The position numbers and the translations under genes were made by a program. Shown here piece after piece: positions 5,279 to 35,196 of a DNA stretch of 35,196 nucleotides (position 1 is its first letter; every line of letters starts with the position of its first letter). Under the pieces are notes generated by a model, which did no database searches, was not told the origin of the DNA, and saw nothing but the letters and a program-made list of their open reading frames with translations. The DNA comes from a virus. The stretch covers positions 1 to 35,196 of the IMG/VR virus record IMGVR_UViG_3300035659_000065. One strand, 5' to 3'.

Positions 5279-6058
5279 ATGGCAACATCTGAGTTTGGAA
5301 AGTTCACGGGCGTCCATGGGCTGCTCACGATCGGCGGGCCCCCCCTCGCGGACGTCCTGTTTGACATTGAGTGGAACACGGAGACCATCGTGCAGGAGAT
5401 CTCCGGCGACTACGGGGGAGAGGAGCACATCCCCGGGAAGAGGACCATTAAGACCTTTAAGGTCACGGGAGCCCTCCAGAAGGCCGAGATGCTCAGGATG
5501 ATCGGGTACGGCCTCAACGAGACCCCCATCACGGGCACAGCCGCGGTCCTGCAGGCCGCCGCGACCTTTACGGCCGGGATTCCCATCACGATCGGGACCC
5601 CCATCACGACTCCCTCGAGGGGACGGATCGCGCTCTCCGTGGCCCCTATCACGACCGGCGGGTTGGTCATCCTCTATGGAACGGACATTAACGACAACCC
5701 CGTCACGGAGATCATCGTGATCCCCAACGGATCCGTCGCGGGAACGAACTTCGACGGGTCCCAGATCTTCAAGACCGCCCCGACTGCGCTTCCCATAGGG
5801 GTCGTGGGTGCCGGGGCAAAGTTCCAGTTTGAGTCCTTGGCAGGTTCGAGCTCCTATGTATTCGGACCCCTGAAGGTATTTGACCTGATCGGGAAGGCCG
5901 AGGACGACGAGGGGAACATCTTCCAGGTCACGGCCCCCGACTGCTGGTTCAAGAACGGGGGGCTTGTCTGGAAGGGCGCCGGGACTCTTGTTCCGTGCGA
6001 CCTGGACGTGGACATGCACAAGGTCTCGGAGCTCGAAGTGGAGCTCGTGGTGGCCTGA
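5279..6058 (+). CDS. Major tail tube protein with an Ig-like insertion
   Basis: A 259-residue beta-rich protein after the tail terminator and before the chaperone pair, the position of the tail tube protein. Residues 1-95 and about 200-259 (including the final HKVSELEVELVVA) would form the tube fold. The middle, about 118-195 (GRIALSVAPITTGGLVILYG, PVTEIIVIPNGSVAG, TALPIGVVGAGAKFQFES), looks like an Ig-type decoration of the kind inserted in many tail tubes. The ATG follows GGTGAC; 40 untranslated bases precede it, the longest gap in the tail module, but I see no TATA box there. Confidence 0.7.
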   Translation: MATSEFGKFTGVHGLLTIGGPPLADVLFDIEWNTETIVQEISGDYGGEEHIPGKRTIKTFKVTGALQKAEMLRMIGYGLNETPITGTAAVLQAAATFTAGIPITIGTPITTPSRGRIALSVAPITTGGLVILYGTDINDNPVTEIIVIPNGSVAGTNFDGSQIFKTAPTALPIGVVGAGAKFQFESLAGSSSYVFGPLKVFDLIGKAEDDEGNIFQVTAPDCWFKNGGLVWKGAGTLVPCDLDVDMHKVSELEVELVVA

Positions 6059-6067
6059 GGGATCCGC

Positions 6068-6592
6068 GTGCCTCCCCTGTCCCCAGAGAAGAAGGCCACC
6101 CTCCTCAGGCAGCTCGCGGAGGATGAGCGAGAGGGGATCTTCAAGTCCCTCGAGGGCCTCAGTGAGGCAGAAGCCCTCAAGTGGGTGAACGAGATCGAGA
6201 TGCTCGAGCGCCGCACCCACAAAAGCGACGGAGCCCATGAGTTCCTGGATCTCGGACAGGGAGACCAGGTGGCGATCCGGGTGGCCCTCCCCGAGACGGA
6301 TCTCATCCTCCTCAGGACCCTTGATGCCGAGAAGGTCACCCTGACTCCGGGCGTGGACGGTGCCCGCCTGGACGAGATCGCGTGCGAACTGCTGGGGATC
6401 GTGACCGCGAACCCCATCCTCACGAAGGAATACTGGATGCGGCACCGCCAGGACGGGTACTCCCCCTCGGATGGGGCGGAGGTGATCATTGGCTTCTACG
6501 AGAGGCGGGCCCTCCGGAACCGGGAACGGAACCAGCGGCTCGCCGCTCTGGGGGCCTTTCGCGAGAAGCCCCCAGGGGCAGAACTACGCTAA
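6068..6592 (+). CDS. Tail assembly chaperone, short product (gpG-like)
   Basis: A 174-residue acidic, helical protein starting at GTG with GAGGG upstream, between tail tube and tape measure genes where siphoviruses encode their tail assembly chaperones. Its C-terminus overlaps a +1-frame reading frame that lacks a usable start (next entry). The N-terminal half is charged helix (EKKATLLRQLAEDEREGIF, EAEALKWVNEIEMLERR). The middle (ETDLILLRTLDAEKVTL, ARLDEIACELLGIVTANP, KEYWMRHRQDG) resembles domains that read tape-measure length. A small part of translation probably shifts frame near residue 168 to give a longer gpGT-like form of about 219 residues. Confidence 0.6.
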   Translation: MPPLSPEKKATLLRQLAEDEREGIFKSLEGLSEAEALKWVNEIEMLERRTHKSDGAHEFLDLGQGDQVAIRVALPETDLILLRTLDAEKVTLTPGVDGARLDEIACELLGIVTANPILTKEYWMRHRQDGYSPSDGAEVIIGFYERRALRNRERNQRLAALGAFREKPPGAELR

Positions 6593-6728
6593 CTTTCTCC
6601 ACTATTGGAGGATCAAGGATCCCCGCGAGTGGGGGGACCTCCCACCCGAGATCAAGGAGTTCATGATGGAAGCCTACAACGAAAAGATGAGTCAGATCGC
6701 GGCGATCCTCGCCCAGAAGGGACACTGA
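6573..6728 (+). CDS. gpT-like extension of the tail chaperone, made by +1 frameshift
   Basis: After base 6572 the frame +1 to the chaperone gene stays open to TGA 6726-6728 and encodes a helical tail (NYANFLHYWRIKDPREW, then PPEIKEFMMEAYNEKMSQIA). No good start codon with a ribosome binding site serves this frame; the only ATGs (from 6664) are far inside. The chaperone frame holds AAG CCC CCA GGG at 6566-6577, with a run of five C (6569-6573) where a tRNA on CCC could slip forward by one base. The join would give ...KP then QGQNYANF. This is the standard G/GT recoding layout, with +1 (or -2) in place of the -1 shift of lambda. Confidence 0.6.
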   Translation, partial: QGQNYANFLHYWRIKDPREWGDLPPEIKEFMMEAYNEKMSQIAAILAQKGH

Positions 6729-6729
6729 C

Positions 6730-7746
6730 ATGGGCCTCTTTGGGACCCTCGGGGACCTCGTGTACGGGATCACCGCCGAGGATAAGACCAAGGCCGGCGT
6801 GGACTCCGCCTCCAAGGGGGCCGGGAAGCTGAACGCCTCCTGGGGAGAGGTCGCCACGACCGGCCTCGGGGTCGCGGGGATCGCGGTCGGGGTGGGCGCG
6901 GCCCTCTGGGCGAACGCCGGGAAGGCCGCCGAGTACGCGGACCGCCTGAACGACCTCACCAGGACCACGGGGATGTCCACGGACTCCCTCCAGGAGCTCA
7001 GGTACATCGTGGGCCAGACTGGGGGGGACTTCGACGCCGTCGCGACTGCCGTGGAGATGATGGTGAAGAACATCGGGGAAGTCTCCCCAGGGGCTGACAA
7101 GGATGCGGAAGCTATGACGCAGCTCGGGGTGGCCTGGCAGGACACCTCCGGGAAGATGCTCCCCACGGAGACCGTCTTCGCGAACGTCGTCGAGGCCCTG
7201 GGGAGCATCGAGGATCCCGCGAAACGGAACGCCCTTGCGTTCGACATCTTCGGGAGGGGCTATAAGGGTGTCATGGAGCTCGTGGGGACCAGCACTCCCC
7301 AGTGGAACGCCATGGCGGATGCCGCTCACAAGGCGGGGCTGGTTATCTCCCAGGAGGACCTTGCGGCCGCGGAGTCCTTCAAGGCCACCCAGGATGAGGT
7401 GAACGCGACCATGGCGGTGTTCTCGAACGAGCTCGGGGTGGCGATCATGCCCCTCCTGAAGGAGCTCCCGGGGCTCCTCGAGGCCGTGAAGCCCGCCATA
7501 GATGGAATCGCCTGGGTCCTCAAGAACGCCGTTGCCTTTACGCACCTCGTGGGGGCGGGGGTGGCTCTCCTCACCGGGGGGGGTCTTGAGGGAGCCGGGG
7601 CGGAGTTCGAGAAGGGGAGGCAGATCTCCCAGGGAACCGGGACCCAGATTAATGTCGCCGCTGTCAATCTCGCCAAGGGGGATACCCTCCAGGAGTACCT
7701 CGACCGGGAGGGCCGTGTCCAGAAGGGGGTGCCTACACTTCCATGA
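6730..7746 (+). CDS. Tape measure protein (short)
   Basis: A 338-residue alanine and glycine-rich protein after the chaperone pair. The N-terminus (GLFGTLGDLVYGITAEDKTK) and the section ADRLNDLTRTTGMSTDSLQE are typical of tape measure proteins: the TGM/STDSLQEL pattern recurs in the TP901/lambda-H group. A hydrophobic segment at about 42-58 (TGLGVAGIAVGVGAALW) and another at about 277-288 could enter the membrane at DNA ejection. Since tail length scales with this protein at about 1.5 angstrom per residue, the tail would be only around 50 nm. No peptidase domain is seen. Confidence 0.75.
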   Translation: MGLFGTLGDLVYGITAEDKTKAGVDSASKGAGKLNASWGEVATTGLGVAGIAVGVGAALWANAGKAAEYADRLNDLTRTTGMSTDSLQELRYIVGQTGGDFDAVATAVEMMVKNIGEVSPGADKDAEAMTQLGVAWQDTSGKMLPTETVFANVVEALGSIEDPAKRNALAFDIFGRGYKGVMELVGTSTPQWNAMADAAHKAGLVISQEDLAAAESFKATQDEVNATMAVFSNELGVAIMPLLKELPGLLEAVKPAIDGIAWVLKNAVAFTHLVGAGVALLTGGGLEGAGAEFEKGRQISQGTGTQINVAAVNLAKGDTLQEYLDREGRVQKGVPTLP

Positions 7747-28743: not shown

Positions 28744-29339
28744 GAAATCAATGGTGCCGTGAACATATCGATGAAGCTGCTGAATATTGTGATCTCACTC
28801 CGTCGGCAGTGCGGAAAGTCAAGCAGGCCCTGAAATTCACAGATGAACACCCGGGAAACATTTCTCAATTGGCGACCGATGCGGTGCTCGTTCTTGCGAA
28901 GGAACGAGATAAAGAGGTTTTGGATCGGGCACTCGCCACGACGGAAGAGAAGATCAAATCCGGGCAGCAACTTTCCGCCCAAGAAGTTAAGGGGATTCTC
29001 TTAACTGCCCGTGGTGGAACAACTCCGGGGCCCGATCTGGTCCGGGTGGTAAAGCAGATGCAGGCGAACCCACCCACAAAACCACCCATATCAAGGGAAG
29101 AGGGGGAGATAAAACCCAAAGAGAAACCCTCCCAGACCACCTCGCAACTCTTCGATATCAAGAAACAGTTTCCCTTCCCGGGCACCCGGGAGGAGATTCT
29201 CTTCCGACAACAGGTCAAGGACATGGGACGGTGGATAAAACTCTGGCTGGGAAACCCGGATCTCGCACCTCTACATCCTATCCTTGAAGGACTGCAGAGG
29301 GCGACTCAGGAAACCTATGGGGATCTGGTCAAGTCATGA
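28740..29339 (+). CDS. Hypothetical DNA-binding-like accessory protein (moron)
   Basis: 199 residues from ATG 28740, with AGGAGG nine bases upstream; longer in-frame starts reach into the previous gene. The N-terminal region (HIDEAAEYCDLTPSAVRKVK, then QALKFTDEHPG) resembles a helix-turn-helix. Residues 55-90 are charged helices, 105-135 a proline-rich linker, and the end helical (GRWIKLWLGNPDLAPLHPIL). The DNA is visibly less GC-rich than portal and MuF genes on either side, which points to recent acquisition. No family recognised. Confidence 0.55.
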   Translation: MRNQWCREHIDEAAEYCDLTPSAVRKVKQALKFTDEHPGNISQLATDAVLVLAKERDKEVLDRALATTEEKIKSGQQLSAQEVKGILLTARGGTTPGPDLVRVVKQMQANPPTKPPISREEGEIKPKEKPSQTTSQLFDIKKQFPFPGTREEILFRQQVKDMGRWIKLWLGNPDLAPLHPILEGLQRATQETYGDLVKS

Positions 29340-30886
29340 AACTCTACAGCGAGCGCCGGAAGCGGGACCCCACTGCGGCAGAACCCCTCTACGAGAAGCT
29401 CGATAAGAAGATCACGGCCCTCTTTGAGGACTTCAAGCAGGAGGCCGTGAGGGTCCTGGACCAGCAGAGCTTCTTCACCCAGGGTGGGGAGTCCCTCAGG
29501 GAGGCCACCCCGGCCGCGTACATCATCAACACGAACGCCATCATGGGATATCTCGCGCAGGCCGCGTTCGTGAAGGTCCTCGTGCCCGGGCAGGACCATC
29601 TCTGGAAGGCCATCCCGGAGGCGTACTCGCAGGGGCAGAAGTTCGCGAACGAGGAGCTGAAGGGGAAGGGCTTCGGGATCATCCTGGGGGCGGGACCCAG
29701 AGACCAGAAGCTCATCCAGGTCCTGAAGGACCGTTCCCTTGCGGGCCTCAAGGGGATCACGGAAGCCACGAGCGCCAAGATTATGCGAACCATCACGGAC
29801 GGCGTCATCAACAATGCGAAGTTCGGGGATGTCGCCAGAGATATCGTCCGGAACGTGGATGACGTGGGGATCGTGAGGGCCTCCGCGATGGTCCGTACGG
29901 AGACCATGCGGGCCGTCAACGTGGGTGTCCGCACCCGGTATAAGGCCGCCGGGGCCGAGCTCCTCGAGAGGATCGCCGCCAACGATGAGCTCGTGTGCGA
30001 CCAGTGCCGGGAGTGGGCCGAGAGGGACAACGGATGGGGTCCGGGGATCTACACCTTTGAGCAGGCTGCGGAAGTGGATCAGGAGAGCCATCCTAACTGT
30101 AGGTGCAGCTGGGGGATCTACGTCCCCTCGAGCCCCTCAGAGTCCCTCAGGGAAGCCTTCTCGGAGGCCGGGGACTCCAGATGGAAAAAGGCATGGATGG
30201 CGTTCGGAGTGGAGAGTCCTCCCGACTCCGGAGAGGGAGATTTCTGGGCGACCGGAAATACCCTCTCATACCATACTGGCATCGACTGGCACCAGATCTT
30301 CCCCACCGGGGTCGCTGTGGGTGTCACCGGAACTCCCAGTACGGGACAGGGTGACAAGGGCGACAAGGGCGACAAGGGCGATCCGGGCGAGCCAGGGCCG
30401 GCGGGCTCCCCAGGAGAACGGGGTCTTCAGGGAGAGCACGGTCTGAAGGGGGACCCAGGGGAGGCCGGTCCCCAAGGGGTACCGGGTGAGCAGGGGGTCC
30501 CAGGAGTCCCTGGTCAGGATGGAGTCCCGGGTGCGCAGGGGATTCAAGGTGTCCCAGGGGATGAAGGTCCCCCCGGAGAGGACGGGGCTCCAGGTGCGAA
30601 GGGTGATCAGGGCAATCCCGGTCCCCAGGGATATCCGGGCGACCAGGGGATCCAAGGAGTACCGGGCTCCCCGGGCTCGAAGGGTGATCAGGGAGATCCG
30701 GGTACGCCCGGCGCGAAGGGCGATCAAGGGGACCCGGGTTCACAGGGAACCCCAGGGACCCCAGGCACGAATGCACCCCCCGGGATGTGGGAGGTTGACC
30801 AGTACGGGGACCTCATGCCCTGCATGGACGTCTATGAGGACCCGAGCTGGGAAGTGGACGCAAATGGAGATCTGATGCCGAAATGA
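29336..30886 (+). CDS. MuF-type head morphogenesis protein with collagen-like C-terminal extension
   Basis: 516 residues. Residues 1-262 are a phage Mu gpF-like minor head protein: helical body, GVRTRYKAAGAELLERIAAN, then the metal site C221-x2-C224 and HPNCRC (H252, C255, C257). Residues 339-479 are 47 uninterrupted Gly-X-Y triplets, starting GDKGDKGDKGDP and rich in GVP, GDQ and GDP units, which should fold as a trimeric collagen helix about 40 nm long. Residues 480-516 hold two copies of WEVD-x2-GDLMP. MuF proteins usually lie inside or at the neck of the head; a collagen extension would project outward as a fibre. Confidence 0.8.
   Translation: MKLYSERRKRDPTAAEPLYEKLDKKITALFEDFKQEAVRVLDQQSFFTQGGESLREATPAAYIINTNAIMGYLAQAAFVKVLVPGQDHLWKAIPEAYSQGQKFANEELKGKGFGIILGAGPRDQKLIQVLKDRSLAGLKGITEATSAKIMRTITDGVINNAKFGDVARDIVRNVDDVGIVRASAMVRTETMRAVNVGVRTRYKAAGAELLERIAANDELVCDQCREWAERDNGWGPGIYTFEQAAEVDQESHPNCRCSWGIYVPSSPSESLREAFSEAGDSRWKKAWMAFGVESPPDSGEGDFWATGNTLSYHTGIDWHQIFPTGVAVGVTGTPSTGQGDKGDKGDKGDPGEPGPAGSPGERGLQGEHGLKGDPGEAGPQGVPGEQGVPGVPGQDGVPGAQGIQGVPGDEGPPGEDGAPGAKGDQGNPGPQGYPGDQGIQGVPGSPGSKGDQGDPGTPGAKGDQGDPGSQGTPGTPGTNAPPGMWEVDQYGDLMPCMDVYEDPSWEVDANGDLMPK
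30350..30772 (+). repeat. Collagen-type Gly-X-Y coding repeat
   Basis: 47 consecutive GGN-N3-N3 codon triplets. The first three are near-identical 9-base units (GGYGACAAG), a substrate for slippage, so copy number may vary between related genomes. Several longer units (GGTGATCAGGG-type) recur at spacing of 9-54 bases. Confidence 0.85.
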
Positions 30887-34618: not shown

Positions 34619-35196
34619 ATGCCGGGGACGTACGAACCCCCCGAGTCTGGGGATCTTCCTGAAGAGGGTAAAAAGATCCTCGCCGACGTTTATCAATCCT
34701 GCAGAGAGAAGCACCCCGGCGAGAACCATCAGAATAAGGCCCTCTGCGCGGGATCCGCCTGGAAGGCCGTCCACAACGCGGGGTTTTCCCAGGACTCGGT
34801 GGGTCATTGGATCAAATCCGAGAGTGGTGTGAATGTGAACAACGACGCCGAACAATTCGTCGAGACGAGTCCGACGGCCCTCCCGGGGAAGTTCATCCGC
34901 GAGGACGGGAATGCACTCGTGAAGATTATCGCCCCTGGGTGGGGGAGCTCAGGGTACTATTCTAAGGAGATGCTCAAGAGGGACGCCCCCAAGGTGTACG
35001 TGCCCGCTACGCACATGCACATCGATCATCCGACGTCCTCCCAGGAGAAGGGCCGCCCCGAGAGATCCCTCACGACCCTCGCGGGGGTCATCACGGAGAA
35101 GGCGCGGTTCCTGGAGGATGGACCCAACGGTCCCGGCGTGTACGCGGAGGCCAGGGTGTTCGAGCAGTACAGGAACTTCCTCAACGAGACCGCTCC
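34619..35196 (+). CDS. ChaB domain fused to prohead protease (3' truncated)
   Basis: 192 codons are present. Residues 13-60 (LPEEGKKILADVYQSCREKH, then AGSAWKAVHNAGFSQ) match the ChaB fold, a small helical domain often attached to viral head proteases. From about residue 88 (LPGKFIREDGNALVKIIAPG) the sequence fits a caudoviral prohead protease or Mu I-like protease-scaffold. VPATHMHIDHPTS carries H132, H134 and H137, one of which may be catalytic; RSLTTLAGVITEKARF and GPGVYAEARVF are usual beta strands of the fold. The catalytic serine is not in the visible part. It would cleave scaffold and capsid protein in head maturation. Confidence 0.7.
   Translation, partial: MPGTYEPPESGDLPEEGKKILADVYQSCREKHPGENHQNKALCAGSAWKAVHNAGFSQDSVGHWIKSESGVNVNNDAEQFVETSPTALPGKFIREDGNALVKIIAPGWGSSGYYSKEMLKRDAPKVYVPATHMHIDHPTSSQEKGRPERSLTTLAGVITEKARFLEDGPNGPGVYAEARVFEQYRNFLNETA

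Follow-up and report, generated by a model that had tools for sequence, protein, structure and literature searches.

Lambda-type tail assembly chaperones are encoded as a pair, G and GT, with -1 slippage on heptamers of the form X_XXY_YYZ giving rise to the second product. The chaperone gene considered here lies in IMG/VR record IMGVR_UViG_3300035659_000065, a 35,196-base viral stretch classed as a linear fragment and referred to below, over its whole length, as the window. This gene is likely, at a probability of roughly 0.85, to be decoded in two ways: as G, and as a minority product GT that would arise by a +1 slip at TTT_CGC. The arrangement shares with the lambda-type pair its gene order and the inferred use of two products in tail assembly, but differs in the direction of the shift. 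A closer counterpart is found in the HF1-group haloviruses (Hafunaviridae: HF1, HF2, Serpecor1 and Hardycor2), for which, and for that group only, TTT-CGC at the G/T overlap was proposed in 2020 as a +1 site, likewise predicted from sequence (PMC7230728). These are haloarchaeal myoviruses, however, with a G not detectably similar to that of the window and a longer T of about 106 amino acids (aa). HSTV-2, a Halorubrum myovirus, has similarly been reported to carry a +1 shift between its tail chaperone frames, the site itself going unnamed in the sections of those reports concerned with it (PMC5009743, PMC8211752). The site observed here in HSTV-2 is TCC TTT CGC.

Beyond the archaeal viruses, UUU_CGN forms a class of +1 shift sites to which the plant amalgaviruses also belong. 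Within this class, the influenza A PA-X site, UCC_UUU_CGU, has been proven by mass spectrometry (PMC3498833). It is like that of the window in its UUU_C P-site codon, the CGN Arg codon in the A site, its +1 direction and its want of an evident stimulator, but it operates on a eukaryotic ribosome, in an RNA virus and in a gene of unrelated function. The complete PA-X nonamer, UCC UUU CGU, is present in L002, a viral contig related to the window, and the UCC before UUU is shared by vir524, a virus assigned to Methanomicrobiales. These likenesses suggest that UUU_C with an Arg CGN codon may be slippery on archaeal and eukaryotic ribosomes alike. While the TTT-CGC +1 site at the G/T junction of the HF1 group was already proposed and the UUU_CGU of PA-X already proven, the present analysis adds the predicted site in the window virus, its presence in viruses of several families, among them methanogen-type siphoviruses and Haloferuviridae, and a putative TTT_C variant in Methanobacteriales viruses.

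In the window, G occupies positions 6068 to 6592 of the + strand, the strand on which T and the neighboring tail genes also lie. It starts with GTG, encodes 174 aa and shares 31% identity with its counterpart in L002. The open stretch of the +1 frame extends from 6486 to a TGA at 6726-6728, and the ATG of the tape measure gene follows one base later, at 6730. The proposed shift site, TTT_CGC, is located at 6557-6562 of the + strand, inside the overlap of the two frames and just upstream of a run of five C. Beyond it the +1 frame encodes T (6561-6728; 55 aa and the TGA stop), which begins ARSPQGQNYANFLHYW, ends AQKGH and aligns with the T of L002, of two further contigs, L003 and L103, and of vir524. 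Joined to the G codons of 6068-6559, T yields a predicted GT of 219 residues. The composition of the +1 frame turns coding-like after the shift site: GC content at codon positions 1/2/3 is 0.55/0.32/0.82 over 6594-6725, alongside 0.71/0.41/0.85 in G and 0.67/0.46/0.88 in the tape measure gene, whereas the 24 codons between a TTG at 6489 and the shift site (0.50/0.83/0.75) are not coding-like. An earlier note on this DNA had described both the G frame, with AAG CCC CCA GGG at its 3' end, and a +1-frame extension behind it; both descriptions were borne out, the extension by its open frame, its coding-like composition and its relatives in other viruses.

The same note had placed the slip on the C run (6569-6573, + strand), and here it did not hold. 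A +1 (or -2) slip on AAG CCC CCA (6566-6574), in which tRNA-Pro would re-pair from one CCC to another, would be in keeping with the presence of the run, in frame, in the window, with the treatment of CCC in PMC10885494 as one of the codons prone to +1 slippage, and with the proline-codon +1 shifts reported for Listeria phage PSA (PMC5009743). Such a slip would, however, leave the T-frame similarity upstream of the run (ARSP in the window, AKSP in the halovirus HFTV1) untranslated in that frame, and in-frame CCC_CC is common in the window, occurring 20 times in the 10,286 codons of its listed genes. The earlier note had set conservation of the run beforehand as a check on its own proposal; the run is not conserved, with no in-frame C run at the corresponding place in L002, L003, L103, vir524, HFTV1 or the other haloviruses. 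A proline-run site of the PSA type was rejected on this absence of CCC_C from the overlaps of relatives. A classical -1 site (X_XXY_YYZ) was rejected on a different ground, T in the window lying in the +1 frame. Slippage on the C run is therefore improbable, and the shift site is very probably TTT_CGC, as judged from the following comparisons.

In-frame TTT_CG occurs once in the same 10,286 codons, at 6557 within the overlap, and the remaining three Phe codons of the window G are all TTC. The features of a UUU_CGN-type site are present, namely an in-frame UUU_C in the overlap and an A-site Arg codon, CGC. Similarity in the T frame sets in directly after TTT_C and before the C run (F|ARSPQGQNYA in the window, F|AKSPRGLEYA in HFTV1), and across viruses it starts immediately behind the site, with ARSPQG, AKSPRG, VNTSQG, GQSPAG or ATSNLG. 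Because this similarity starts at TTT_C, upstream of the run, the junction peptide would be GAF-ARSPQGQ in place of the KP-QGQ that had been anticipated.

A survey of archaeal tailed viruses assembled 18 +1 G/T pairs, and TTT_C is found in frame inside the overlap in 18 of the 18. The site is TTT_CGN in 15 of them; the other three are Methanobacteriales viruses with TTT_CCT or TTT_CAT. L002 and L003 were found by a T-peptide scan of viral contigs; in both, G precedes the tape measure gene and T lies in the +1 frame. The frame junction reads GCC TTT CGC in the window, TCC TTT CGT in L002 and GGG TTT CGC in L003, with shifted products F|ARSPQGQNYANFLHYW, F|VNTSQGRAFTQLLHWL and F|ATSNLGLWWFWLLKEF, respectively. 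Two more were retrieved without use of the motif. In vir524, fetched by its terminase, GGA TCC TTT CGG is followed by a +1 frame, F|GQSPAGVGLFQLSQSLGKF, that continues up to the tape measure gene. In HFTV1, fetched by PCNA, the junction is GGG TTT CGC AAA AAG and the product F|AKSPRGLEYALVND; in the HFTV1 record the two frames appear as distinct hypothetical genes. TTT CGC was likewise seen at the junction of HF2, in agreement with PMC7230728. All of the viruses reached by G-T similarity among the haloviruses, again without the motif (HRTV-4, HRTV-29, HSTV-2, HRTV-25, HRTV-27, Serpecor1, HJTV-2 and HRTV-8) carry TTT CGN, while L103, found through a TTT_C search, reads TCT TTT CGC with F|ARNKRGQDYGDYLRF. 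The Methanobacteriales viruses Drs3 (fetched by accession) and vir075 (by G-T similarity) have TTT CCT, and PhiF3 (by G-T similarity) has TTT CAT, each with T in the +1 frame. Only TTT_C is kept in this last group, since the A-site codon of PhiF3 is CAT and not the CCT of Drs3 and vir075.

In every case the T-like +1 frame adjoins the tape measure gene, and identity in these frames amounts to 20-57% from one virus to another, a conservation for which the earlier note had asked. This conservation, the coding-like composition and the constant position before the tape measure gene all speak against T being a decayed or chance frame beside a G that alone is made. Such a reading would be compatible with the shortness of T and with its being known from sequence alone, but it is very improbable.

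TTTC is the sole 4-mer of codon plus next base common to all 15 TTT_CGN overlap zones, which span 16 to 68 codons, and the evidence points to TTT_C as the common denominator of all +1 cases observed. From each virus's own codon frequencies, the probability that TTT_CG falls at random into a 35-codon zone is 0.009-0.022 per virus. The product over the six lineages not selected by motif is about 2e-12, or about 1e-4 as a product of TTT shares when Phe is taken as given, with lineages treated as independent in both estimates and L103 excluded on account of its discovery by a TTT_C search. If the site is inherited, these products show conservation rather than independent origin, and the lineages that are truly independent are modest in number.

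The proposed mechanism, the simplest available, follows the model established for influenza PA-X (PMC3498833). Most ribosomes would read G to its stop at 6592. In a minority, the tRNA-Phe that occupies the P site on UUU (6557-6559), while CGC (Arg) stands in the A site, would slip one base forward and re-pair with UUC, so that reading would resume at GCG (6561) and GT would end at 6728. The GAA anticodon of tRNA-Phe forms a wobble pair on UUU and would gain a standard pair on UUC while the A site awaits its tRNA. The earlier note had left the direction as +1 or -2; the former is favored because a -2 movement would place tRNA-Phe on CCU, with which it does not pair in the window. We infer the slip, its minority rate and its +1 direction as a movement of the tRNA from these features of the sequence. 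By analogy with lambda, from which the putative functions of both products in tail assembly are taken, G would serve as a coat on the tape measure protein, while tube subunits would be brought in by the T portion of GT, the scarcer of the two. GT itself would not be expected in virions.

T might instead be a separate protein, initiated within G at the TTG at 6489. GGAGGTGATC A TTG (6478-6491, + strand) presents a strong Shine-Dalgarno-like sequence before this T-frame codon: the 10-mer (6478-6487) is the sole + strand copy in 35 kb, ends 1 nucleotide before the TTG and leaves a gap of 6 nucleotides between GGAGG and TTG. Of the 42 start sites checked, 13 are preceded by Shine-Dalgarno-like 5-mers, which makes it plausible that the host uses such sequences. 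Over the first 24 codons counted from the TTG, the composition is nonetheless non-coding (GC2 of 0.83). L003, L103, HRTV-27 and Drs3 have no start of any kind in the T frame, and L002 and vir524 have only a GTG, located after the shift site. Initiation at 6489 would also leave the conserved TTT_C unexplained. An internal start is thus possible but probably unused, and as an account of T it is about as improbable as the C-run slip, if not slightly more so. The earlier claim that T lacks a usable start accordingly needs qualification, as a candidate start with a Shine-Dalgarno-like sequence does exist in the window, although most relatives have no equivalent. As an observation in its own right, GGAGGTGATC lies inside G and is complementary to the 3' end of archaeal 16S rRNA.

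Decoding by a +1 slip at TTT_CGC fits the layout of a G/GT pair, in that the end of G is overlapped by a second, coding-like frame that reaches the tape measure gene. The pair is also situated as expected, between a probable tail tube gene and the tape measure gene. The former, an open reading frame of 259 aa at 5279-6058, is assigned by its position between the tail terminator/neck genes and G, and has no match in Pfam or PHROGs. The latter (6730-7746; 338 aa) matches Pfam PF10145 at 3.2e-08 and PHROG tape measure families down to 1.2e-23. Several points weigh against this interpretation. Neither G nor T matches any curated chaperone family in Pfam or PHROGs. Because tail chaperone families diverge quickly, the case for membership in the G/GT class is made from layout only. 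The AlphaFold model of G, built from two sequences, has a mean pLDDT of 45 and is too poor to use. No homology could be detected between the G proteins of one virus group and those of another, so that their shared name rests on gene order. When the methanogen-type and HFTV1 sets were compared with hhalign, neither the G nor the T profiles matched significantly (probability about 1-2%), and no common ancestry of these two sets is claimed for this reason. Folds of 80 nucleotides at 12 sites gave no consistent 3' RNA structure (z of +0.8 to -1.6), and downstream structure was rejected as a shared stimulator on that inconsistency. Finally, CGC need not be a slow codon in the window virus, and the T-frame TTG at 6489 has its strong Shine-Dalgarno-like sequence.

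The host of the window virus is likely an archaeon. Its nearest named terminase is that of vir524, at 52%, and the best match in an archaeal genome is a Methanomassiliicoccales metagenome-assembled genome, at 46%. The proposal of the earlier note, a G/GT pair produced by a +1 frameshift in an archaeal virus, in the order tube, G, T and tape measure, is supported.

It is somewhat probable that archaeal tailed viruses, siphoviruses and myoviruses alike, with haloarchaeal, Methanomicrobiales and Methanobacteriales hosts, share UUU_C as their general site of +1 recoding. The site would act in chaperone genes that are otherwise not detectably alike, having been inherited from an early tailed virus or acquired repeatedly because archaeal ribosomes slip there. 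If so, one and the same event would lie behind several records whose annotation gives a -1 shift, a -2 shift or two independent genes. The recurrence of one short site in unrelated-looking genes, in viruses of three archaeal host groups, would provide a directly testable +1 signal, and the frames of many mis-annotated tail genes could be corrected by means of TTT_C. According to a 2021 review of archaeal recoding, Archaea themselves have yielded, besides selenocysteine and pyrrolysine decoding, only a single report of a programmed frameshift, a -1 event in Saccharolobus; programmed frameshifting in some archaeal viruses is listed there as apparent (PMC8211752).

The deposited records of four haloviruses bear on this point. 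In HRTV-29 (L113:320-999, NC_062762), annotated with a "putative -1 frameshift," GGG TTT CGC is found at 791. The T in its +1 frame shares 57% identity with the HFTV1 T, while its -1 frame is an unrelated Arg/Ser-rich stretch, and the second frame given in the record is probably wrong. HRTV-25 (L115), HRTV-27 (L116) and HJTV-2 (L118) carry "-2 frameshift" notes, yet all have TTT_CGN and fit a +1 shift. From their sequences, the events deposited for these four viruses can be read as a single +1 event.

In HATV-3, psiM2, BJ1, PhiCh1, HHTV-2 and Blf4 the second frame is open in the -1 direction. This direction, known from the archaeal virus Hardycor1 (PMC7911831), has also been published for HVTV-1 and the HCTV viruses (PMC7911831, PMC8211752). 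As both kinds are observed, archaeal tailed viruses would appear to use both directions, the +1 group being the TTT_C group. The Blf4 chaperone (L131:13007-13620) has C GAA AAA AAC, containing A AAA AAC, near the end of G, and its record annotates no frameshift. BJ1 has a tRNA-Phe gene of its own (L069:19973-20046), though its chaperone overlap is of the -1 type.

Scans of viral contigs with G and the tape measure protein, and of genome contigs with the T profile, gave no usable results, nor did a T-profile search of 293 genomes from the phylum of the Methanomassiliicoccales genome. A DNA scan for PREWGDLP returned a chance match in an unrelated phage-like contig (L054), and tblastn matches of T to T5-like phage genes were weak and judged spurious. 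A scan of related contigs for overlapping frames produced many chance pairs, among which only L103, the L002 and L003 contigs (L092 and L093) and some -1-type pairs, for example L099, L108 and L109, seemed genuine. In the window itself (1-508 and 34619-35194), the terminase and portal genes lie near the right end and the connector and tail genes start at the left end, an arrangement that would result if a circularly permuted genome were opened within the head module. Positions 29336-30886 encode a Mu F-like head morphogenesis protein that carries, as a fusion, a long region of collagen-like Gly-X-Y repeats.
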